A DNA stretch of 64,000 nucleotides from Eubacteriales bacterium (GTDB taxonomy: Bacteria > Bacillota > Clostridia > Lachnospirales > Lachnospiraceae). The stretch is from the NCBI GenBank assembly GCA_030524455.1, contig JAUNGT010000001.1:1-64000 (forward strand), in the 5' to 3' direction. Both the position numbers and the translations under genes were made by a program. A model generated the notes under the pieces. It saw only the letters and a program-made list of their open reading frames with translations, was not told the origin of the DNA and ran no database searches. Numbering within the stretch: position 1 is the stretch's first letter; each line of letters begins with the position of its first letter. Positions 32,740 to 47,062 of this stretch are shown in pieces.

Positions 32740-32863
32740 CCATGACGCATCGCTTCAAGGATGAGGTGGATGCCTGGGATTTTTATTTAGGCAAGATGTC
32801 CGCAGCAGAATGATAGGCGTATTCCACAGACGGACACGGCCGAGGAAAAGGAGTGTTGAGATT

Positions 32864-33775
32864 TTGGCAAAGTACATTGTGAAGAGAGTGCTGCTTGCGA
32901 TTCTGACCATACTGATTGTCTGTGCAATCACGTTTTTTGCGATGAATGCGATCCCGGGCGGCCCTTTCGACGGCGAGAAAGCGATTTCAGACGAGGTGCG
33001 CCGCGTGCTGGAGCAGCGGTTCAACCTGGATAAGCCGGTGTGGGAGCAGTTTATCCTGTACATGAATAACCTGCTGCACGGCGATTTCGGCGTTTCGGCC
33101 AAGACCGGACGGGAGATTCAGGTGACAATCTTTTCCTCTTTCAGCGTGTCCGCACGTCTGGGAGGCATGGCGATTGTGGTGGCGCTGATCGTCGGCGTGG
33201 TGCTGGGGAGCGTTGCCGCTTTGACGAGGAATAAGCTGCCGGACCGGCTGATTATTTTCTTCTCCACCCTGTTTACCTCCCTGCCCAGCTTCGTGCTGGG
33301 AACCCTGCTTTTGCTGGTGTTCTGTATCCAGTTAAAATGGGTGCCGGTGTGGAGCCCTACCGAACAGAATTATGTGCTGCCGGTGATCGCGCTGGCGGCT
33401 TATCCCATGGCCTACATTACCCGTCTGACCAAGACGAGCATGCTGGACGCGCTGGGACAGGATTATGTCCGCACGGCGAGGGCAAAGGGAGTGGCGCAGT
33501 GGAAGGTGATTTTTAAGCATACCCTGCGCAACGCCCTGATTCCGGTGGTGACCTATGTGGGCCCGATGACGGCCTCCATCCTGACCGGTTCCCTTGTGGT
33601 GGAGTCCATCTTTACCATCGGCGGCCTGGGCGCCAAGTTCGTGGACGGCATCACCAACCGCGACTATCCGATGATTATGGGCACCACAATTTTCCTGGCG
33701 GTGCTGATGACGACCATGATGCTGGTCACCGATATCGTTTACAAGCTGATCGACCCCAGAATTACCCTGGAATAA
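32864..33775 (+). CDS. oppB: Peptide ABC transporter permease, OppB type (operon 1)
   Basis: A 303-residue permease with six membrane segments. The AKYIVKRVLLAILTILIVC start, PGGPFDGEK, DKPVWEQFILYMNNLLHGDFG and the EAA-like loop RTARAKGVAQWKVIFKHTLRNALIP are typical of OppB/DppB. A TTG start at 32864 is inferred because AAAAGGAG precedes it and no ATG fits. It heads a complete oppBCDF-A operon. Confidence 0.92.
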   Translation: MAKYIVKRVLLAILTILIVCAITFFAMNAIPGGPFDGEKAISDEVRRVLEQRFNLDKPVWEQFILYMNNLLHGDFGVSAKTGREIQVTIFSSFSVSARLGGMAIVVALIVGVVLGSVAALTRNKLPDRLIIFFSTLFTSLPSFVLGTLLLLVFCIQLKWVPVWSPTEQNYVLPVIALAAYPMAYITRLTKTSMLDALGQDYVRTARAKGVAQWKVIFKHTLRNALIPVVTYVGPMTASILTGSLVVESIFTIGGLGAKFVDGITNRDYPMIMGTTIFLAVLMTTMMLVTDIVYKLIDPRITLE

Positions 33776-33790
33776 AGAAAGGAGGCAGAC

Positions 33791-34873
33791 ATGAGCAGCG
33801 AAATGAATACAAACGACAAGATGCCCAAAAAGTCTCCTTTGAGCTTCCAGATCGACTTAAAGAAGTTTGAGAAGGCGACGGACGAGGAGAAGAGGCAGCA
33901 GGATGTGATGAGCGAATCCGTTTCCTTTTTCAAGGACGGTATGCGCAAGCTGATGAAGAACCCCCTGGCGATGGGAAGCATCGTCGTGCTGATCCTGATT
34001 ATCGCGACGATCCTGATCGTCCCCCATGTGGTACCCTATAAATATTCCCAGATTATCACGGTCAACGGCTCCCGCGACAAGACGGCGGCCAACATGGCGC
34101 CCTTTCAGTACTCCGAGAAGGAGCAGGCCTATATCGACGAGGGCGGCGAGGTGTTCCCCCATATCATGGGAACCGACAGCATGGGCCGCGACTATTTTAT
34201 CCGCGTGATTTACGGAACCCGGGTGTCCCTGACGGTGGGCCTGTTCGCAGCCATCATCGTGCTGGTGATCGGCGTGGTTTACGGCAGCGTTTCCGGTTAT
34301 TTCGGCGGAAAGGTGGATCTGGTGATGATGCGTATCGTGGATATCATCTATTCCCTGCCGGACATGCTGATGGTGGTGCTTTTGTCCGTGGTGCTGCGGG
34401 AGGCGCTGAGTGTGGACGCGTTCCCGTTTCTGCAGAAGGTGGGCACGAACATGATTTCCATGTTTATCGTGTTCGCACTGCTGTACTGGACCGGCATGGC
34501 CCGCATGGTGCGCGGTCAGATTCTGACGGTCAAGCAAAATGAGTATGTGCTGGCGGCGAGAGTCAGCGGCGCGAAGGCGGGACGGATCATCCGCCGTCAC
34601 ATCCTGCCCAACATCGTCAGCGTGATCATCATCGCGGCGGCGCTGCAGATTCCCTCCGCGATCTTTACCGAGAGCTTTCTGAGCTTTATCGGCCTGGGCG
34701 TACAGGCGCCCATGCCTTCCCTGGGTTCTCTGGCCAACGAGGCGAGAGCCGGCCTGACCCAGTATCCCTACAAGCTGCTGTTCCCTGCCGGCATGATCGG
34801 ACTGATCACACTGGCGTTTAATCTGCTGGGCGACGGCCTGCGGGATGCGTTTGATCCGAAGCTGAGGAGGTAA
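33791..34873 (+). CDS. oppC: Peptide ABC transporter permease, OppC type (operon 1)
   Basis: A 360-residue permease. A cytoplasmic N terminus of about 55 residues leads to helix 1, then an outside loop of about 70 residues ending in the family motif MGTDSMGRD, then the five-helix core with the loop AARVSGAKAGRIIRRHILPN. AAAGGAGG precedes the ATG. It serves as an ordinary-length comparison for the OppC of operon 2, whose loop is far longer. Confidence 0.94.
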   Translation: MSSEMNTNDKMPKKSPLSFQIDLKKFEKATDEEKRQQDVMSESVSFFKDGMRKLMKNPLAMGSIVVLILIIATILIVPHVVPYKYSQIITVNGSRDKTAANMAPFQYSEKEQAYIDEGGEVFPHIMGTDSMGRDYFIRVIYGTRVSLTVGLFAAIIVLVIGVVYGSVSGYFGGKVDLVMMRIVDIIYSLPDMLMVVLLSVVLREALSVDAFPFLQKVGTNMISMFIVFALLYWTGMARMVRGQILTVKQNEYVLAARVSGAKAGRIIRRHILPNIVSVIIIAAALQIPSAIFTESFLSFIGLGVQAPMPSLGSLANEARAGLTQYPYKLLFPAGMIGLITLAFNLLGDGLRDAFDPKLRR

Positions 34874-34877
34874 TGAC

Positions 34878-35875
<998 letters not shown>

Positions 35876-35879
<4 letters not shown>

Positions 35880-36856
35880 GTACGGAAGAGACAAAGAAAA
35901 GCGAATATCTGGTGGAGGTGAAGGATCTAAAGCAGTATTTCCCCATCAAAACCGGTTTTATGAAAACGACGCCCTTAAAGGCGGTGGACGGCGTGTCCTT
36001 TGCCATTAAGCCCGGCGAGACGCTGGGGCTTGTGGGAGAGTCCGGCTGCGGCAAGACCACCGTGGGACGCTCTCTGATGCGCCTGTATACGCCCACCGGC
36101 GGAGACGTGTTCTTCGACGGGGAGCGCGTGGATGCAAAGAGCATCACCCATATGCGCAGGCAGATGCAGATGGTATTCCAGGATCCCTACTCCTCCTTAA
36201 ATCCCCGCATGACGGTGGAGGATATCATCGGAGAGCCTCTGGACGTGCATAAGCTGTATTCCTCCAGAGTAGAGAGAAGGGACAGGATCCTGCACCTGAT
36301 GGAGCTGGTCGGCCTGAACGCAGAGCATGCGACCCGCTATGCGCACGAGTTTTCCGGCGGTCAGCGTCAGAGAATCGGTATTGCCCGGGCGCTTGCGACC
36401 AATCCCCGCTTTATCGTCTGCGACGAGGCGGTCAGCGCGCTGGATGTTTCCATCCAGGCCCAGGTAATCAATATGTTTGAGGAGCTGCAGGCAAAGCTGG
36501 GCGTGGCCTATCTGTTTATCGCCCACGATTTGCTGGTGGTGCACCATATATCCGACCGTATTGCGGTGATGTATCTGGGAAGGATCGTGGAGATTGCGGA
36601 CTCCAATGAGTTAAATGACAATCCGATTCATCCCTACACCCAGTCTTTGCTGAGCGCGGTTCCCTACCCGGATCCGAAGATGGCAAAGGAGCGCCATCGG
36701 ATCGTGCTGCAGGGCGATGTTCCCAGTCCGCTGCATATGCCGAGCGGCTGTGCCTTCCGCACCCGCTGCCGCTACGCCACCGAGCGCTGCGCGCAGGAGT
36801 GTCCGTCCCTGACGGACCGCGGCAACGGCCATCAGGTTGCGTGCTGGAACAAATAA
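35876..36856 (+). CDS. oppF: Peptide ABC transporter ATPase, OppF type (operon 1)
   Basis: A 326-residue ATPase: Walker [10 protein letters not shown], signature [15 protein letters not shown], Walker [13 protein letters not shown], and the C-terminal [14 protein letters not shown] motif. It starts with GTG at 35876, four bases inside oppD and after GAGAGGAGG. It pairs with OppD. Confidence 0.94.
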
Positions 36857-36863
36857 TACCGAT

Positions 36864-36886
36864 CAAAACATGTCATCCATGTTTTG
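36864..36886 (+). other. Hairpin between oppF and the binding-protein gene
   Basis: CAAAACATG (36864-36872) pairs with CATGTTTTG (36878-36886) around a five-base loop. There is no T run. It may stabilise or separate the messages for the ATPase and the binding protein. Confidence 0.5.
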
Positions 36887-36943
36887 TGACCGGACTTTTG
36901 AAGCCCGGCCGATAGATAACATATCATAAAGGAGGAACGAATT

Positions 36944-38734
36944 ATGAAGAAGAAGTATCTGGCCCTTTTGCTGGCTGCTTCCATGACGGCAAGCGCCCTT
37001 GCCGGCTGCGGTTCCGCTGCGGCTGACACAAGCGCTCCGGCAGCGGAGAGCACGGCGGCCGCTTCCGAGGAGGCTTCCACCGAGGCAGCAACCGGGGAGG
37101 CAGCGGCATCCACCGAGCACGGCCCCAGCAGTGAGGCAGCTCCGGCCTGGGAGGATTACGACGCGAGAATCGCGGCAATCCGCACCGAGACCGACCTGGC
37201 AAAGCGTGAGGCGCTGATGCACGAGGCGGAGGACGAGCTGATGAGCACCTGGGCGGTTGTGCCTCTGTACTACTACAACGACGTATATCTGCAGAAGACG
37301 GATGTGGACGGCATTTACGCGAACCTGTTCGGGTTTAAGTATTTTGCTTTTGCAACCACTCCTACCAATACCCTGGCGCTGCAGATCGCTTCCGAGCCCG
37401 ATAAGCTGGATCCGGCGCTGAACACCACCGTTGACGGCGCTTGCCTGGCGATCCTGGCATTCTCCGGCCTGTACGCGTACGATGCGGAGGGCAAGCTGGT
37501 TCCCGAGCTGGCAGAGAACTGCGACCAGAGCGAGGACGGCATGACCTACACCTTCACCATGAGGGACGGCTTAAAGTGGTCCGACGGCGAGGCGCTTGAC
37601 GCTTCCGATGTGGTTTACAGCTGGAACCGTCTGGCAGATCCCACCACGGCGGCTGACTATTCCTACCTGACCAGCGTGATCGCAACCAACGATGACGGCA
37701 CGCTGCAGATCGAGGCGAGCGAGGACGGCAAGACTTTCACCGTACATTTGGTTGCACCCTGCGCATACTTCCTTGACCTGTGCGCGTTCCCTGCATTTTA
37801 TCCCGTACCTCAGCAGGCGGTAGAGGCGGCTGACGGCGCGGACACCAACCCCGGCGCATGGGCGCTTGAGGCAGGCTTTGTGACCAGCGGTCCTTTCACC
37901 CTTTCCGAGTGGAAGCACAACGAGTCCATGACCTACGTTCCCAACCCCAACTACTGGGCGGCGGACAAGGTATCCCTGACAGAGATCAACTTCATGTTAA
38001 GCGCTGACGATACCGCGATCTACAATGCGTTCCAGGACGGCTCCCTGCAGTTCTCCGACACCATCTCCACTGATATGATGTCTACGGTAGAGTCCACCCC
38101 TGAGTTCCACAAGATCCCTACCCTGGGAACCTACTATGCGGGCTTCAACGTAAACAGCGAGCTGTTTGCAGGCAAGACCGTTGAGCAGGCGGCGGCGATG
38201 AGAAAGGCGTTCACCCTGCTGATCGACCGTCAATACATCGTTGACACCATCGCACAGGCGGATCAGGAGATCGCAAATACCTTCATCCCGACCGGCATGA
38301 GCGACGGCAACGGCGGCGAGTTCAGAGTAAACGACGACGCTTACACCTATCCCGATGAGGAGAACGTGGGTTACTTTAATCCTTCCGACATGGAGGGCAA
38401 CACCGCGGAGGCGATCGAGCTGTTAAAGAGCGCGGGCTATGAGTTTGACGAGAGCGGCATGCTTTCCGCAAACACTCCCATCAGCATGACCTACCTGACC
38501 AACGATTCCGAGGGTAACGTAAAGATCGGCGAGGCAATCCAGCAGGATTTCGCAATGATCGGCATCAACGTAACCGTTGAGACCCGTGAGTGGTCCGTAT
38601 TCCTGAACGAGAGAAAGGACGGCCAGTTCGACTTCTGCCGTGAGGGATGGCTTGCAGACTACAACGATCCGATCAACATGCTTGAGATGTGGGAGACCAA
38701 CTCCGGCAACAACGACATGCAGTTCGGCAGATAA
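36944..38734 (+). CDS. Circularly permuted peptide-binding lipoprotein (OppA type)
   Basis: A 596-residue binding lipoprotein of family SBP_bac_5 (lipobox ALAGC, Cys22; Ala/Ser/Glu-rich linker to about 66). The domain order is unusual. Residues 69-138 (DYDARIAAIR, HEAEDELMSTWAVVPLYYY, GIYANLFGFKYF) match the block that normally ends OppA/DppA proteins. The usual N-terminal part follows (LALQIASEPDKLDPALN, TYTFTMRDGLKWSDG), and the protein stops at GNNDMQFGR, exactly where the missing block should begin. So the C-terminal 70 residues appear moved to the front. A strong terminator follows directly. AAGGAGG precedes the ATG. Confidence 0.88.
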   Translation: MKKKYLALLLAASMTASALAGCGSAAADTSAPAAESTAAASEEASTEAATGEAAASTEHGPSSEAAPAWEDYDARIAAIRTETDLAKREALMHEAEDELMSTWAVVPLYYYNDVYLQKTDVDGIYANLFGFKYFAFATTPTNTLALQIASEPDKLDPALNTTVDGACLAILAFSGLYAYDAEGKLVPELAENCDQSEDGMTYTFTMRDGLKWSDGEALDASDVVYSWNRLADPTTAADYSYLTSVIATNDDGTLQIEASEDGKTFTVHLVAPCAYFLDLCAFPAFYPVPQQAVEAADGADTNPGAWALEAGFVTSGPFTLSEWKHNESMTYVPNPNYWAADKVSLTEINFMLSADDTAIYNAFQDGSLQFSDTISTDMMSTVESTPEFHKIPTLGTYYAGFNVNSELFAGKTVEQAAAMRKAFTLLIDRQYIVDTIAQADQEIANTFIPTGMSDGNGGEFRVNDDAYTYPDEENVGYFNPSDMEGNTAEAIELLKSAGYEFDESGMLSANTPISMTYLTNDSEGNVKIGEAIQQDFAMIGINVTVETREWSVFLNERKDGQFDFCREGWLADYNDPINMLEMWETNSGNNDMQFGR

Positions 38735-38826: not shown

Positions 38827-38855
38827 TTTACATAAGGAAAAAGATATGCTAGAAT
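38827..38855 (+). promoter_or_regulatory. Promoter of Opp operon 2
   Basis: TTTACA (38827-38832) and TAGAAT (38850-38855) with a 17-base spacer, about 100 bases before the first gene. Confidence 0.7.
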
Positions 38856-38953: not shown

Positions 38954-40876
38954 ATGAAAATGAAGAAAGTTCTGTCAGCACTGCTCACCGTGGCGATGGT
39001 TGCGACCATGACTGCCTGCGGCGGACAGGATCAGGTGACGAACAACGAGACCGCAGCTCCGGCAGAGAGCTCCGCTGCGCAGGAGAGCGCGACGGAGGAG
39101 ACCGCCGCAGCGGCGACGGAGCGGCCCACAGAGCCTGAGGGCCAGCTGATTATCGGTTCCATCACCGACCTGGAGGGTGAGTTTTACGATCCTTCCTTTA
39201 ACAATACGGCGACGAACTACAAGATGTACAGCCTGATTCACGGCTATTCCACCATTGCTTACACCAAGGAGGGCAAGTTTGAGGTGGATCCCACCGTGGT
39301 GAAGGATATGCAGGCGACGGACAATGAGGACGGCTCCAAGACCTACACCTTTACCTTAAACGAGGGTCTTGTCTGGTCTGACAACAGCCCCGTCACCGCA
39401 AAGGACTATGTGTTTGCCCTGCTGCTGGAGTCCAGCCCGGAGATGATGGGTGTGGACGGCTATCCGGCAAACAGCTATGTTCAGTTTGCCGGCTACGATG
39501 AGTTTAATGCCGGCGAGACCAAGAACTTTTCCGGTGTGCGCCTGATCGACGATTACACGTTCTCCGTGACCGTCAAGGCGGAGGAGCTGCCTTATCACTA
39601 TGATCTGGCTTATGCCACCGTGTCTCCCAGACCGATTGCGGTGATCGCTCCCGAATGCGATATTGTGGATTCCGAGGAAGGCGCTTCCATCAGCGGCGAC
39701 TTTACCACGGATCTGCTGATGGAGACCATCAACGATCCCGACACCGGCTACCGCTACAATCCGCAGGTGGTCTGTGGCCCCTACAAGCTGGTAAGCTACG
39801 ATACCTCCAGCCGTCAGGGAACCTTTGAGGTGAATCCTCTGTTTGCAGGCGATTACCGCGGCGTAAAGCCCGTGATCCAGAAGCTGATCATCAAGACCGT
39901 AAAGAACGAGACGCAGATGAACGAGCTGGAGAGCGGCTCCGTGGATCTTCTGTTCAGCATTTCCGGCGGCGATTCCATCGAGTCCGGCCTGGATCTGGTG
40001 GATGCAGGAAAGGCGCAGAAGCTGACCTACTTCCGGAACGGCTACGGCAAGATTCAGTTTGACTGCTCCCAGTTCCCCACCGATTCCGAGAAGGTGCGTC
40101 AGGCGATCGCCCTGTGCCTGGACAGAAACGAGTTTGCACGCCAGTATTCCGGCGGCTACGCTTCCATCGTCCATGCGGCTTACGGCCTGGCTCAGTGGGA
40201 GTACCAGGAATCCAAGGACTGGATCGACGAAAATCTGGACACCTATGAGATGGATCTGGACCGCGCAAAGCAGCTCCTTGTAGAGGACGGCTGGACCCTG
40301 AACAAGGACGGCGGCGAGTACAAGGACGGCGACGGCCTGCGCTATAAGGATGTGGACGGCGAGTTAAAGCCTCTGTCCATCGAGTGGTGCAACACGGACA
40401 ACAATCCGGTTTCCGAGCTGCTGGCAACCATGCTGCCCTCCAATATGGAGCAGATCGGCATGGAGCTTCTGCCCACCACCACCGACTTCCCTACCCTGTC
40501 TGCCGCAATCGGACATCAGGGCGAGAAGATCTACAACATGTACAATCTGGCAACCGGCTTTGCAAGCGCGAACTCTCCCTGGTACTACTACAGCATGGAT
40601 GAGAAGTTCATGAGCAACGGCTACAACTCCAACTGGATCAAGGATCAGGAGCTGGCTGACGCGGCGGGCGCGCTCAAGAACATCCCTTACGATGACGACG
40701 AGGCGTGGCTGGAGGCGTGGAGAAACTACATCAAGGTGTGGAACGAGAAGCTGCCTGATATCCCGCTGTACTCTGACGAGTACCACGATTTCTTCAGCAA
40801 CAAGCTGCAGGGCTGGGACGCTACCGCGATCTGGGAGTGGTCCAGCGCAGTCCTGGATGCCTGGGTGACGGAGTAA
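38954..40876 (+). CDS. oppA: Peptide-binding lipoprotein (OppA type, operon 2)
   Basis: A 640-residue SBP_bac_5 lipoprotein with the usual domain order. The lipobox is TMTACGG (Cys22), followed by an acidic Ala/Glu linker. The family stretch YTFTLNEGLVWSDNSPVTAKDYVFAL lies near 140 and the C-terminal block (WRNYIKVWNEKLPDIPLYSDEYHDF) is at the end, in contrast to the permuted protein of operon 1. GGAGG lies 13 bases before the ATG, a rather long spacing. A weak terminator-like hairpin separates it from the permease genes. Confidence 0.92.
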   Translation: MKMKKVLSALLTVAMVATMTACGGQDQVTNNETAAPAESSAAQESATEETAAAATERPTEPEGQLIIGSITDLEGEFYDPSFNNTATNYKMYSLIHGYSTIAYTKEGKFEVDPTVVKDMQATDNEDGSKTYTFTLNEGLVWSDNSPVTAKDYVFALLLESSPEMMGVDGYPANSYVQFAGYDEFNAGETKNFSGVRLIDDYTFSVTVKAEELPYHYDLAYATVSPRPIAVIAPECDIVDSEEGASISGDFTTDLLMETINDPDTGYRYNPQVVCGPYKLVSYDTSSRQGTFEVNPLFAGDYRGVKPVIQKLIIKTVKNETQMNELESGSVDLLFSISGGDSIESGLDLVDAGKAQKLTYFRNGYGKIQFDCSQFPTDSEKVRQAIALCLDRNEFARQYSGGYASIVHAAYGLAQWEYQESKDWIDENLDTYEMDLDRAKQLLVEDGWTLNKDGGEYKDGDGLRYKDVDGELKPLSIEWCNTDNNPVSELLATMLPSNMEQIGMELLPTTTDFPTLSAAIGHQGEKIYNMYNLATGFASANSPWYYYSMDEKFMSNGYNSNWIKDQELADAAGALKNIPYDDDEAWLEAWRNYIKVWNEKLPDIPLYSDEYHDFFSNKLQGWDATAIWEWSSAVLDAWVTE

Positions 40877-41006: not shown

Positions 41007-41996
41007 ATGGGAAAGGGAAGATACCTGATAAAGAGACTGATTTACATTATTTTCGTCTTTTTTATCATTTCCATTATTATGTTTTTTATCTATAAGCTTC
41101 TGCCCGGCGATCCGGTCCGCATGATGATCGGCGATACGGGAAATATCAAGCCGGAGCGCTACGAGGCGATGTATGCCCAGTACGAGGAGCTGCTGGGGCT
41201 GGACAAGCCGCTGCCGGTGCAGTATGTGGTGTGGATCAGCAATATGTTAAAGGGCGATTTCGGTTATTCGGTTCAGTACAAGCGCCCGGTCATCCAGATT
41301 CTGGGGACGCCCATGAAAAATACGCTGATGCTGAACTTTGTTTCGATGATTGTGGTGTTCGCAATCTCCGTGCCGCTGGGCATTGCGACCGCCGTGAGGA
41401 AAAACTCACTTTTTGATAAAGCGGTGCAGGTGCTTACGATTTTAGGATACAGTCTGCCGAGCTTTGTCATAGCGCTTCTGGCGATCTATTTCTTTTCCGT
41501 CCGGCTGGGATGGTTCCCGATCAGCGGGGTGAAAACCGCGGGTCTTGAGGGAAACGCCTTTGTCCAGGCGGCAGATATGGCCAGGCATATGATACTGCCG
41601 GTGTTAGTCATGTCCGTGGGGGGACTGGGAAGCATCACCCGATATGTGCGGGCTTCCATGATTGAAGCGCTCCGTATGGACTATATAAAAACGGCCCGGG
41701 CAAAGGGACTGCGGGAAAAGACCGTCATTTATGTGCACGCGTTCCGGAACGCCCTGATCCCGGTGGTCACGGTCACCACCTGGTGGATCATCGGCCTGTT
41801 CGGCGGTTCCATCGTCATCGAGTCCATTTTCCTCTGGAGGGGCCTTGGTATGCTGATGCTGGACGGCCTGTTCCAGCGCGATTTCTCCGTTGTGCTGGCA
41901 ATGCAGATGTTTTACGTCGTATTGTCCCTGGCGGGAAATGTCCTGATGGATATCGCGTACTCGCTGGTGGATCCCAGAGTACGTCTGGAGAATTAG
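41007..41996 (+). CDS. oppB: Peptide ABC transporter permease, OppB type (operon 2)
   Basis: A 329-residue permease with six membrane segments. LIKRLIYIIFVFFIISIIMFFIYK is helix 1, PGDPVRMMIGD follows, and the coupling loop reads KTARAKGLREKTVIYVHAFRNALIP. AGGAGGT stands before the ATG at 41007. It is the partner of the propeller-bearing OppC encoded 15 bases downstream. Confidence 0.93.
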   Translation: MGKGRYLIKRLIYIIFVFFIISIIMFFIYKLLPGDPVRMMIGDTGNIKPERYEAMYAQYEELLGLDKPLPVQYVVWISNMLKGDFGYSVQYKRPVIQILGTPMKNTLMLNFVSMIVVFAISVPLGIATAVRKNSLFDKAVQVLTILGYSLPSFVIALLAIYFFSVRLGWFPISGVKTAGLEGNAFVQAADMARHMILPVLVMSVGGLGSITRYVRASMIEALRMDYIKTARAKGLREKTVIYVHAFRNALIPVVTVTTWWIIGLFGGSIVIESIFLWRGLGMLMLDGLFQRDFSVVLAMQMFYVVLSLAGNVLMDIAYSLVDPRVRLEN

Positions 41997-42011: not shown

Positions 42012-43817
42012 ATGGCAGGAAAGTTCCGAAAAAAGAAATCGACAATGGCTGTTGTCGGACAGCGGATGATGATGGGCGGAAACGATGCCGTAAAGGAGCA
42101 GGAGGAGCTGCAGAGCCCCGCGCAGATGGTGGCGGAGAGCTTTGTGCACAACAAAATCGCCATGGCAGGCGTAGTCTGTTTCCTGATTATTTTTGCGTGC
42201 TGCGTGATCCTTCCCTTCTTTTTCCCGATTGACAAGTATTATCAGGATGTGACCCAGGCAAATGTGGCGCCGGGCTTCGGGATGCTGAAGGCGCCTGCCG
42301 CGCTGGCAGGCGACGCCCTGGATATTTCCGTGGGAAGCACCTATTCCGCCGGCATTGACCGGGAGGGTCGGGTGTACGAGTGGGGCACCTTCCCCAACGA
42401 AAAGCTGAAGAAGCTCCCCTCCTCCGAAGAAATGGGGAAGCTGACCATGATTTCCGCCGGGCTGGATCATATTGTGGCGGTCAACGATCAGGGCAGCGTG
42501 CTGACCTGGGGAAATGACCGGATGGGTCTGTCCTCCATCCCGATGGAGCTGCGGATGGGAGAGAAGATCAAACAGATTTACGCCGGCTATCAGGTGTCCT
42601 TTGCCCTGACCGAGGACGGCGAGCTCTACAACTGGGGCAACAGCTATCTGCTGGATGTGCGCGTGCCTTCAGAGCTTCAGGGAACCATCGAAAAGTTTGT
42701 GGCAAATACGAATATTGTGCTCGTTCTGACGCAGGACGGCAGGGTAGTGCCCTTAAGCTCCAAGGCTTCCGCCTATACCAGGATCCCGGAGGAAATCCAG
42801 GGCCATGTGGTGGATCTGGCGCTGACCGACGAGAGCGCGGCGGCGGTGACGGACGACGGAAAGGTCCATGTGTGGGGCAACAATGTCAAAAAGACGATGG
42901 AGGTGCCGGAGCTGAACGGCAGCGTAGCCTCCATCGTGGGCGGCCGCTATCACTATGCGGCGCTTTTGGAGGACGGCAGCGTGCAGGCCTGGGGAGACGA
43001 CACCTTCGGCCAGGGCAATGTTCCCTCCATCAAAGAAAAAGTGACGAAGCTTTCCGCAGGCTACTATGGCACCTACGCCATCGGTGAGAGCGGTAAGGTG
43101 TACAGCTGGGGCTTAAAGGGCTATGTGATGGGAACGGACGCCTTTGGACGCGACGTGTTCCGGAGGCTTTTGGTGGGCGGACGGATGTCCATGACCGTGG
43201 GCGCGATCGCCGTCATTATTTCCACGCTGATCGGCGTGATGGTGGGCGGGATTTCCGGCTATAAGGGCGGCAGGATCGACAATGTGATGATGCGTCTGAC
43301 CGAGATCGTTTCCTCCATTCCGTTCCTTCCCTTCGCCATCATCCTGTCCGCAATCCTGGGCAACAGTGTGTCGGAGATGGAGAGAATTGTCATTATCATG
43401 CTGATTTTGGGCCTTTTGTCCTGGCCCGGCATCGCCCGTCTGGTCCGCGGCAGCGTGCTGGCCGAGCGGGAGCAGGAGTTTGTGACGGCGGCCAAGGCGC
43501 TGGGCGTGCGGGAGATGGGCATCGTGTTCCGACATATCATCCCCAATGTGATCACGGTCATCATCGTGAACGCGACGCTGGATTTCGCGACCTGTATGCT
43601 GACGGAGTCCTCCCTTTCCTTCATCGGCTTCGGCGTGCAGGAGCCGAGCGCAACCTGGGGAAATATGCTGAACGGTTCCCAGGCGGCGAAGGTGATCCAG
43701 GATTACTGGTGGCGCTGGCTGTTCCCGGCGATTGCGCTGGGCCTGTGCACGATCAGCATCAACTGTGTGGGCGACGGCCTGCGGGATGCCATTGATCCCA
43801 AATCCAAGGAAAGGTAA
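42012..43817 (+). CDS. OppC-type permease with inserted seven-repeat RCC1/BLIP-II-like propeller
   Basis: A 601-residue permease, about 240 longer than normal OppC. Residues 1-72 are the cytoplasmic tail and helix 1 (MAGVVCFLIIFACCVILPFF). From 373 on it is an ordinary OppC core, starting MGTDAFGRD and with the loop AAKALGVREMGIVFRHIIPN. Between them are seven repeats of about 40 residues at 105-126, 147-169, 189-210, 229-250, 268-290, 308-329 and 347-367, of the form G-x-x-(Y/H)-x-x-A-x-x-x-x-G-x-V-x-x-WG. Repeat 4 is the most degenerate. By OppC topology the insert lies outside the membrane. RCC1-like repeats of this length build seven-bladed propellers in BLIP-II. Confidence 0.92.
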   Translation: MAGKFRKKKSTMAVVGQRMMMGGNDAVKEQEELQSPAQMVAESFVHNKIAMAGVVCFLIIFACCVILPFFFPIDKYYQDVTQANVAPGFGMLKAPAALAGDALDISVGSTYSAGIDREGRVYEWGTFPNEKLKKLPSSEEMGKLTMISAGLDHIVAVNDQGSVLTWGNDRMGLSSIPMELRMGEKIKQIYAGYQVSFALTEDGELYNWGNSYLLDVRVPSELQGTIEKFVANTNIVLVLTQDGRVVPLSSKASAYTRIPEEIQGHVVDLALTDESAAAVTDDGKVHVWGNNVKKTMEVPELNGSVASIVGGRYHYAALLEDGSVQAWGDDTFGQGNVPSIKEKVTKLSAGYYGTYAIGESGKVYSWGLKGYVMGTDAFGRDVFRRLLVGGRMSMTVGAIAVIISTLIGVMVGGISGYKGGRIDNVMMRLTEIVSSIPFLPFAIILSAILGNSVSEMERIVIIMLILGLLSWPGIARLVRGSVLAEREQEFVTAAKALGVREMGIVFRHIIPNVITVIIVNATLDFATCMLTESSLSFIGFGVQEPSATWGNMLNGSQAAKVIQDYWWRWLFPAIALGLCTISINCVGDGLRDAIDPKSKER

Positions 43818-43826
43818 GGTGGCAAA

Positions 43827-44817
<991 letters not shown>

Positions 44818-44828
<11 letters not shown>

Positions 44829-45831
44829 GGAACAAAACGTGCTTTTGCATGTGGAGAACGTGAAGCAGTATTTCCCGGTGAAAAAGAGCCGCCTGGGAGA
44901 GAAGCAGAAATATGTGAAGGCCAACGACGGTATCAGCTTGGATATCTACGAGGGCGAGACCTTCGGCCTGGTGGGAGAATCCGGCTGCGGCAAATCCACC
45001 TTCGGGCGGACCCTGCTGCAGCTCTATCCGCAGACAGAGGGAGTGATCGAGTACCGGGATAAGGAAGGGCAGCTTCTTCCTTTAAAGGAGCTTTCCCGGG
45101 AGAAGATGCGGGAGCTCAGAAAGGAGCTTCAGATCATCTTTCAGGATCCTTATTCCTCATTGAATCCCCGCATGACGCTGGGGCAGATCATCGGCGAGGG
45201 CCTGGTCTCCCACGGGATTTTCAAAAAGGGCGATCCCGCCATGCAGGAATATATCATGAATATTATGGAGGAGTGCGGCCTGTCGGGATATTTTTTCAGC
45301 CGCTATCCCCATCAGTTTTCCGGCGGACAGCGCCAGCGGATCGGCATTGCCAGAAGTCTGGCGCTGCATCCCAGATTCGTGGTCTGTGACGAGGCGGTCA
45401 GCGCGCTGGACGTTTCCATCCAGTCCCAGATCCTGAACCTTTTGCAGGACTTAAAGGAGAAGGAGAATCTGACGTATCTCTTCATCACCCACGACCTGAG
45501 CGTGGTCAAATATATCAGCGACCGCATCGGCGTGATGTATCTGGGCAACATGGTGGAGCTTGCCCCCACGGACGAGCTGTTTTCCAACACCCTGCATCCT
45601 TACACGGAGGCGCTCCTGTCCGCCATTCCGACGGTGGACCAGGAGGGCAGGCGGGAGCGGATCCTGCTGGAGGGCGATATCCCCAGCCCCGTCAATCCGC
45701 CCAGCGGCTGCAAGTTCCACACCCGCTGCCGCTATTGCCAGGAAAAATGCAGGCAGGAAATCCCGGCTTTCGAGGATAAGGGCAACGGCCATTTCGTGGC
45801 CTGCCATTACCCGCTCAAAGGAGAGGCATGA
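44818..45831 (+). CDS. oppF: Peptide ABC transporter ATPase, OppF type (operon 2)
   Basis: A 337-residue ATPase: Walker A GESGCGKST, signature [15 protein letters not shown], Walker [13 protein letters not shown] and a C-terminal CKFHTRCRYCQEKC motif. AGAGGAGGTGAG precedes its ATG inside oppD. Its stop overlaps the following small gene (ATGA, 45828-45831). Confidence 0.94.
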
Positions 45832-46037
45832 TGCTGTTTCAGAAAAAAATCAACCGCGTGATCGACGTGGAGAAGGCGGAGAAGGAGTTCGATGAGCGCA
45901 TGGAGGGGCAGGAGCTGGAAAAGGGTGACCGCCTCGCCATGGTGCTGGCCGGCCTGATCGTGTTTGTGCCGGCGGTGCTTCTGGTGATCGGCTTTTTCCT
46001 GCTGGTGATCTGGTTCTTTTTTGGGAGATTTGTGTGA
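45828..46037 (+). CDS. Small membrane protein at the end of Opp operon 2
   Basis: A 69-residue protein coupled to oppF by an ATGA overlap and preceded by AAAGGAGAGG. Residues 1-35 are charged and helical (VEKAEKEFDERMEGQELEKGD), and 37-66 are one or two hydrophobic segments (MVLAGLIVFVPAVLLVIGFF). I know no family for it. No OppF gene of operon 1 has such a follower, so it may belong specifically to the propeller-bearing transporter. Confidence 0.7.
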   Translation: MMLFQKKINRVIDVEKAEKEFDERMEGQELEKGDRLAMVLAGLIVFVPAVLLVIGFFLLVIWFFFGRFV

Positions 46038-46043
46038 AAGTGT

Positions 46044-46081
46044 GAGGGGCAGCATGACTTGATAAGAGTCATGCTGCCCTC
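46044..46081 (+). terminator. Hairpin ending Opp operon 2
   Basis: GAGGGGCAGCATGACT (46044-46059) pairs with AGTCATGCTGCCCTC (46067-46081). The stem is long, but the T run is poor (TGATTATT). Confidence 0.7.
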
Positions 46082-46176: not shown

Positions 46177-46551
46177 ATGAAGAAATATAATCATTACGAT
46201 CTGCATTTCCGGTTTGAAATAAAAAATGATACGATCCATTTCCAGAATGCACAGTATATTCATCCGCTGAAGCAGGAGCTGGTGCAGGAATTGCAGCGTG
46301 ATTTTGCGCAGGATGAAAATGTCAAAGCTGCGGTAATATTTGGCAGTGGTGTGGAGTTTCGGTGTAATAGCTTTAGTGATTTGGATGTGTGTATAGAGAG
46401 ATATGACACAGCGAAGCCCTTTCACTATGAGGCAGCGGCAGACGGAGAGGCGATAGATTTGTTGTATGCAGATCAGCTTGGAGAGAAGCTTCGTCGGGAA
46501 ATAGAGGAAAAGGGAATTGTCGTGTATGACAGGGAGGCTGTATATGTGTGA
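46177..46551 (+). CDS. MNT-type nucleotidyltransferase (probable antitoxin)
   Basis: A 124-residue minimal nucleotidyltransferase with the fold's motif GSGVEFRCNSFSDLDV (about 57-72) and a later Asp in AIDLLYAD. Proteins of this type, paired with HEPN partners, form toxin-antitoxin modules in which the MNT enzyme adds nucleotides to the HEPN toxin. The first 45 residues are an extra N-terminal part. The stretch is visibly richer in A and T than its neighbours. It overlaps the HEPN gene by 8 bases. Confidence 0.82.
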   Translation: MKKYNHYDLHFRFEIKNDTIHFQNAQYIHPLKQELVQELQRDFAQDENVKAAVIFGSGVEFRCNSFSDLDVCIERYDTAKPFHYEAAADGEAIDLLYADQLGEKLRREIEEKGIVVYDREAVYV

Positions 46552-47062
46552 TATCAGACTGTTTCAAAGGGCATATTTAGATTATCAGGCAGCAGAGACG
46601 TTGCTGAAAATGCCAACGAATGATGAAGCATATATGAATTTGGTAGCCTATCATCTGCAGCAGTCAGTAGAAAAAACACTGAAGGGGTTTTTGGAATGTG
46701 CAGGCGTGACGGTGCCGAACACGCATGATATTGACAAGCTGGTGCGCATGTCCAGAGATAACGGATCCCGCGCAACGATTACAGAGTGGATTGCAGACCG
46801 GACAGATATGCTTACCAGATGGGAAGTGGATACCCGTTACAACATAGATTATTGTGTGGAAAAGGAAAAGGTACTGAAAGGTCTGGCGGGAGTAAAGGAA
46901 TTTCTGGATGCCAACGGGCTTAAGGAGGAACTCAGAGAAGAATTAAAGGCTCCCGGGATCCGGGAAAAGCTGAAAGGTTTTTTACCGAAGTCGTATTCCC
47001 CGCGGGATGATTTTGAGTGGAACTGTCTGTATCAGATTTACCGCAGGCAAATGCAAAAATAA
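46544..47062 (+). CDS. HEPN domain protein partner of the MNT enzyme
   Basis: A 172-residue protein with an N-terminal HEPN helix bundle (about 1-120): AYHLQQSVEKTLKGFLECAG and THDIDKLVRM are typical. The C-terminal 50 residues are charged and not assigned. The RNase motif R-x4-6-H of toxic HEPN proteins is not evident; the corresponding stretch reads TRYNIDYCVE. It may therefore be a non-catalytic HEPN, or use other residues. Start at 46544, inside the MNT gene. A perfect palindromic terminator begins at its stop codon. Confidence 0.8.
   Translation: MCDIRLFQRAYLDYQAAETLLKMPTNDEAYMNLVAYHLQQSVEKTLKGFLECAGVTVPNTHDIDKLVRMSRDNGSRATITEWIADRTDMLTRWEVDTRYNIDYCVEKEKVLKGLAGVKEFLDANGLKEELREELKAPGIREKLKGFLPKSYSPRDDFEWNCLYQIYRRQMQK

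Follow-up and report, generated by a model that had tools for sequence, protein, structure and literature searches.

What does a seven-bladed propeller do in the middle of an Opp-type permease? The window, by which we mean the whole stretch of 64,000 nucleotides analysed here, holds an OppC gene (42012–43817; 601 aa, ORF intact; all operon features given below lie on the plus strand) into which a propeller of the RCC1/BLIP-II type is inserted. Opp/Dpp importers are textbook systems, and our analysis points to the propeller importer as an undescribed variant of this well-studied transporter. A published description of the OppC–propeller combination was not found in the open-licence literature, which is weak evidence, and no ABC importer permease so built was found there either; the preliminary description likewise knew of none. 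Domain databases would record such an architecture mechanically.

Architecture and predicted structure of the propeller OppC

Pfam and motif assignments place the parts of OppC in the order OppC_N, propeller, GTD–GRD motif and BPD_transp_1. OppC_N (residues 35–87, 3.3e-10, above the Pfam cut-off) covers transmembrane helix 1 (residues 48–70 in the model; 42153–42221), the propeller takes up about residues 97–368 (42300–43115), the GTDAFGRD motif (43131–43154) follows directly after blade 7 as a conserved junction, and the BPD_transp_1 permease domain spans residues 408–598 (43233–43805; 6.2e-34, above the Pfam cut-off). The preliminary description had read the insert as an in-frame propeller between helix 1 and the GTD motif with both permease flanks kept. 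Pfam order and predicted structure agree on this position, the uninterrupted 601-aa ORF retains OppC_N and BPD_transp_1, and the Pfam profiles for RCC1 and BPD_transp_1 occur in this one protein in the same order. The RCC1/BLIP-II nature of the insert, also proposed there, is borne out by RCC1_2 matches in five stretches (1.2e-37 in total, 127 bits vs a cut-off of 22), by the best sequence match of the middle of OppC, BLIP-II (3qhy_B, 5.1e-27), with UVR8, HERC and RCC1 ranking behind, and by Foldseek, which aligns the propeller part with BLIP-II at TM 0.80–0.85 over the target. As a sequence match, the BLIP-II hit (5e-27) is far above chance level, and sequence and predicted fold alike assign the propeller to the RCC1/BLIP-II superfamily. 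The permease part is closest by sequence to E. coli OppC (8z21_B, 1.5e-55), and Foldseek matches it to solved OppC/DppC chains (8z21_B, TM 0.73, 43% identity). An EAA-like coupling motif, EFVTAAKALGVREMGIVFRHIIPN, was read by eye at residues 489–512, of which E489, A493, A494, G498, P511 and N512 are invariant in alignment A2.

A first AlphaFold run on a nine-sequence alignment gave seven three-stranded blades (pLDDT mostly 80–93) and a poor membrane part. A second run on 78 sequences, of which 57 were propeller OppCs and the other 21 permease segments taken from ordinary OppCs, gave a single-chain prediction with a mean pLDDT of 90.8 and a pTM of 0.83, in which values are about 90–98 per block for the propeller and mostly 80–97 for the membrane helices. 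In the model of the 601 residues alone, the propeller lies between helices 1 and 2 and its seven-bladed ring is predicted to be closed. The blades, predicted to be three-stranded, comprise residues 102–125, 144–167, 186–209 and 226–247 (blades 1–4, blade 4 being degenerate) and 266–289, 305–328 and 344–367 (blades 5–7). The seven repeats of nearly 40 residues noticed earlier hold, with a spacing of 39–42 residues, whereas the WG ascribed to every one of them is present in six of seven and missing from blade 4. Blade 4 lacks WG in the window's protein and likewise in the 58 relatives aligned with it, whose common residue pairs at this blade do not include WG; the asymmetry of the ring is thus conserved.

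The manner of attachment can be read from the two linkers. The GTD–GRD motif starts seven residues past the last strand of blade 7. At the C-terminal end of the insert, WGLKGY resembles the opening half of an inter-blade linker, and the N-terminal linker (APAALAGD...) resembles the closing half. Since the two linkers resemble halves of one inter-blade linker, the ring is probably attached via the seam between blades 7 and 1. In both DppB and DppC, the TM1–TM2 region lies in the periplasm (PMC12136057), which argues that the OppC propeller lies outside the membrane.

Our comparison with BLIP-II (1jtd, 3qhy, 3qi0) reveals seven short blades in both, with 27–29% identity and TM 0.80–0.85. BLIP-II is free and secreted, whereas the OppC ring is anchored in the permease, apparently by the blade 7/blade 1 seam, and its degenerate blade 4 is a further difference from BLIP-II. 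BLIP-II proper inhibits class A beta-lactamases, and there is no ground to expect this of the OppC propeller.

Distribution and origin of the fusion

The preliminary description had left room for a misassembly, and an accidental joining of two genes might be imagined from the state of the window genome, a draft of 88 contigs. Against this, the fusion recurs in the 59 distinct fusion proteins that we extracted, and the same design is found in single-contig genomes, among them G260, G293, G372, G699 and G716; misassembly is thereby ruled out, and we hold the fusion to be an artefact with practically no probability. The closest relatives are encoded by a Roseburia MAG (72% identity), an uncultured Lachnospiraceae MAG (71%) and genomes of the same genus. 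Searched against 397 genomes of the own family, the propeller profile detects the fusion in 16, and fusion matches of at least 159 bits are separated in this sample by a clear gap from unrelated RCC1 proteins of at most 66 bits. The fusion also occurs in further families at the level of the order, the class and the phylum. The propeller OppC family is therefore patchy within its own family, yet spread across the phylum. Common to the fusion proteins is the junction of blade 7 followed by GTD, mostly in the form WGLKGYxxG(T/S)DxxGRD.

We built a maximum-likelihood tree of the permease domain under LG+C20 from 131 rows, in which a branch with 100/100 support sets the 58 propeller OppCs apart from all others. 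This single clade is most simply explained if the propeller was acquired once. Some members are larger, at about 700 aa in L155–L157 and 876 aa in L165. Their enlarged propeller regions, of about 540 residues in L165 (L165:1-2628) and 360–380 residues in L155, L156 and L157, are perhaps double or extended rings.

The nearest relatives without a propeller are the clostridial OppC ORFs L199, L200, L201, L202 and L203 (47–51% identity), placed beside the propeller clade with weak support (86/58). Between OppC_N and the GTD motif they carry unrelated inserts of about 150–330 residues, for which Pfam gave no match. The OppC TM1–TM2 loop is clearly a site where large domains are gained, and those that it accepts in these relatives are various. 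It might then be supposed that the loop tolerates bulky inserts and that the role of the propeller is merely structural or one of spacing, as the unrelated inserts at the same place, the variable inter-blade loops and the members with larger propellers would allow. We consider this very unlikely, given that the blade framework, the degenerate blade 4 and the junction are kept across the families of the phylum and that no propeller-less member was seen inside the clade among the 131 rows of the permease tree.

The six-gene operon and its co-inherited partners

In the window, the propeller OppC is encoded in an operon with the order OppA, OppB, OppC, OppD, OppF and a 69-aa membrane protein. The OppA-like lipoprotein binding protein belongs to a distinctive SBP family (OppA2; 38957–40876; SBP_bac_5, 1.9e-45), and OppB is a permease of ordinary size with an N-terminal domain (41007–41996; BPD_transp_1, 6.2e-39; BPD_transp_1_N, 4.2e-12); the start codons of the two are most likely at 38957 and 41007. 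OppD (43827–44828) and OppF (44818–45831) are ATPases with oligo_HPY C-termini, and the small membrane protein (45828–46037), characterised by its family alignment, its position next to OppF in relatives and its co-occurrence, is the last gene. A promoter-like site, TTTACA-17-TAGAAT with a TG before the -10 (38827–38855), and a terminator-like hairpin of 15 pairs with a weak T tail just after the small gene (46046–46080), both of them consensus matches only, bracket exactly these six genes. An Rfam search of the region gave no match. The preliminary description had reported a full operon, and on this Pfam, with one SBP_bac_5 protein, two BPD permeases and two oligo_HPY ATPases, and our locus comparison agree. 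On all the features examined, the propeller OppC belongs to a six-gene importer of the Opp/Dpp type (type I ABC importers).

Opp/Dpp importers (OppABCDF, DppABCDF; 8z21, 8z1v, 8j5q) have the same five-subunit set, with an SBP family 5 protein and oligo_HPY ATPases, and their permeases share with ours OppC_N and BPD_transp_1, the GTD–GRD motif and about 43% identity to E. coli OppC. The importer described here differs from them in the propeller of ~270 residues in the OppC TM1–TM2 loop, the distinctive OppA and the sixth, small membrane protein. The best NCBIfam matches for the permease and the binding protein are those of Opp4 (Opp4C, NF045476; Opp4A, NF045467); at 318 bits vs a cut-off of 350 and 145 bits vs a cut-off of 650, respectively, both fall below the curated cut-offs, and membership of the Opp4 equivalogs was ruled out.

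The A-B-C(propeller)-D-F order and the distinctive OppA are kept in every complete locus examined, the incomplete loci being L147 (OppB and OppD not recovered), L090 (same contig, masked there) and L132 (contig end). In all loci that extend far enough except L010, OppF is followed by a small-protein homologue of about 70 aa, some of the scores being weak; its N-terminus is charged, and a single long hydrophobic stretch surrounds the motif LEKxDxxAMxxAAFxVFxPA. The co-occurrence of this gene, suggested earlier as a matter for survey, proved near-strict. The small-protein profile, searched against 394 genomes of the family, nearly the same sample as for the propeller profile, found it in 16 of 16 propeller genomes, and the sole match stronger than 1e-10 without a propeller came from G083, where the contig breaks off inside an OppF bearing a helical insert as in propeller-operon relatives. 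The OppA profile, searched against 196 genomes of the class at a threshold of 1e-60 or better, found the distinctive OppA in 8 of 8 propeller genomes and elsewhere only in G774, where the match stops at the contig end. Co-occurrence in the family and class samples indicates that propeller, OppA and small protein travel together, and the distinctive OppA and the small protein occur almost only alongside the propeller permease. The small membrane protein, which has no name, is a candidate sixth subunit of the importer and, in that capacity, an addition to the Opp subunits.

Four genomes were considered as carrying a partner gene without the propeller and were rejected: in G083 and G774 the contigs are cut inside the operon or at its edge, in G274 OppF is followed by unrelated genes, and in G189 the match is weak and such an operon absent.

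Further features were noted in and around these loci. The OppF of many relatives, although not that of the window, has ~150 extra residues, apparently helical or coiled-coil, that split the ABC domain between Walker A and the signature motif (for example L129:10032-11507, L131:11199-12830 and L140:5394-6995). Two copies of the distinctive OppA stand in tandem before the operon in some genomes (L133:13584-15560 with L133:10982-12985; L232 with L236 in G699), which suggests that one permease may serve two binding proteins. Directly upstream of the six-gene operon, at 32765–38734, lies another Opp operon, ordinary in make-up (B, C, D, F, A), whose OppA has only distant similarity to the OppA of the propeller operon. 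Directly downstream (46177–47062) is a pair of nucleotidyltransferase (Polbeta) and HEPN genes, resembling MNT-HEPN toxin-antitoxin modules.

Possible roles of the propeller

For the propeller, the preliminary description had suggested three roles: docking of the binding protein, capture of peptides or sensing of an outside partner. We favour the first and propose, with about even confidence, that the propeller serves the cognate OppA as an integral outer domain for docking and gating. The propeller would sit in the extracytoplasmic OppC loop between helices 1 and 2 as a permanent platform, one face of which would hold the lipid-anchored OppA above the OppB/OppC gate and next to the scoop of OppB; this would position OppA once loaded and prevent substrate escape. 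Less confidently, the small membrane protein may stabilise or regulate the complex. A comparable arrangement is seen in MalF-P2 of the maltose importer, likewise a large folded outer insert of a permease that contacts the binding protein. MalF-P2 has a different fold, occupies a different loop (MalF residues 91–271) and belongs to a Gram-negative sugar importer; its likeness to the OppC propeller would be one of functional analogy, not homology.

Docking is favoured by the precedent of MalF-P2, in which a large outer loop domain is in direct contact with MalE (PMC3150292), and by the co-inheritance of the distinctive OppA together with the nature of the equivalent DppB loop: in E. coli DppABCDF, the DppB TM1–TM2 scoop enters the DppA cleft and seals the outer cavity (PMC12136057), and the OppC TM1–TM2 loop, which holds the propeller here, is the pseudo-symmetric counterpart of this scoop region. 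On the other side, the N-terminal (scoop) domain of OppB is still present, and the importer therefore has no need of the propeller as a scoop replacement. Recent cryo-EM ascribes binding-protein engagement to the short DppB scoop, and the propeller clade offers a natural experiment on how permeases recognise their binding proteins, or on whether they recruit other partners.

Conservation was compared by loop classes, and the loops between strands 1 and 2 average 2.23 bits vs 1.61 bits for the inter-blade loops. Blade-specific residues are D152 and H153 in blade 2, Q194 and S196 in blade 3, R312, H314 and Y315 in blade 6, and Q/N at 353–354 and Y355 in blade 7. Conservation of the strand 1–2 loops suggests one working face, the GxxH being partly generic RCC1 consensus. 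A mirror-tree test by partial correlation over 20 loci gave no specific co-evolution signal between propeller and OppA (0.09), and the propeller–OppF and propeller–OppD pairs score above propeller–OppA. As this signal is not specific, the test is uninformative or mildly negative for docking, and we do not count it as support. Median distances (propeller 1.09, OppA 1.21) indicate a similar divergence rate.

The extracytoplasmic position, a divergence about as fast as that of OppA and the conserved face, to which blades 2, 3, 6 and 7 contribute aromatic and His/Gln residues, would also suit a receptor that catches a substrate or a polymer, be it a peptide, a glycan or a wall fragment, and hands it to OppA or the gate. 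We regard this as unlikely, given the dedicated binding protein already present in the operon and the fact that BLIP-II/RCC1 propellers are chiefly known for binding proteins (PMC9218822). The protein bound could also be other than OppA: the small membrane protein, a partner at the cell surface or a secreted peptidase might bring the importer a signal or a source of substrate. BLIP-II, the closest solved relative, binds beta-lactamases at picomolar affinity according to the title of PDB entry 3qi0, and the small membrane protein nearly always co-occurs; nevertheless, the operon shows only six genes in the loci compared, with none seen beyond them, and the small protein has little outer surface for binding, which makes such a partner improbable.

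A further reading may be considered, namely that this family forms a distinct subclass of ABC importers, whose permease itself bears a propeller that binds proteins with high affinity and whose subunits include a small membrane protein as the sixth. We put this forward tentatively, as rather less than probable. If true, the translocator, and not the binding protein alone, would have a built-in means of recruiting partners or substrates. The family is spread among anaerobic Firmicutes of the gut and elsewhere, and how these take up peptides is poorly known. LPxTG surface proteins of Bifido strains from the honeybee gut also have RCC1 domains, with about seven repeats (PMC4449606); these are separate, wall-anchored proteins, whereas the OppC propeller is part of a transporter subunit.
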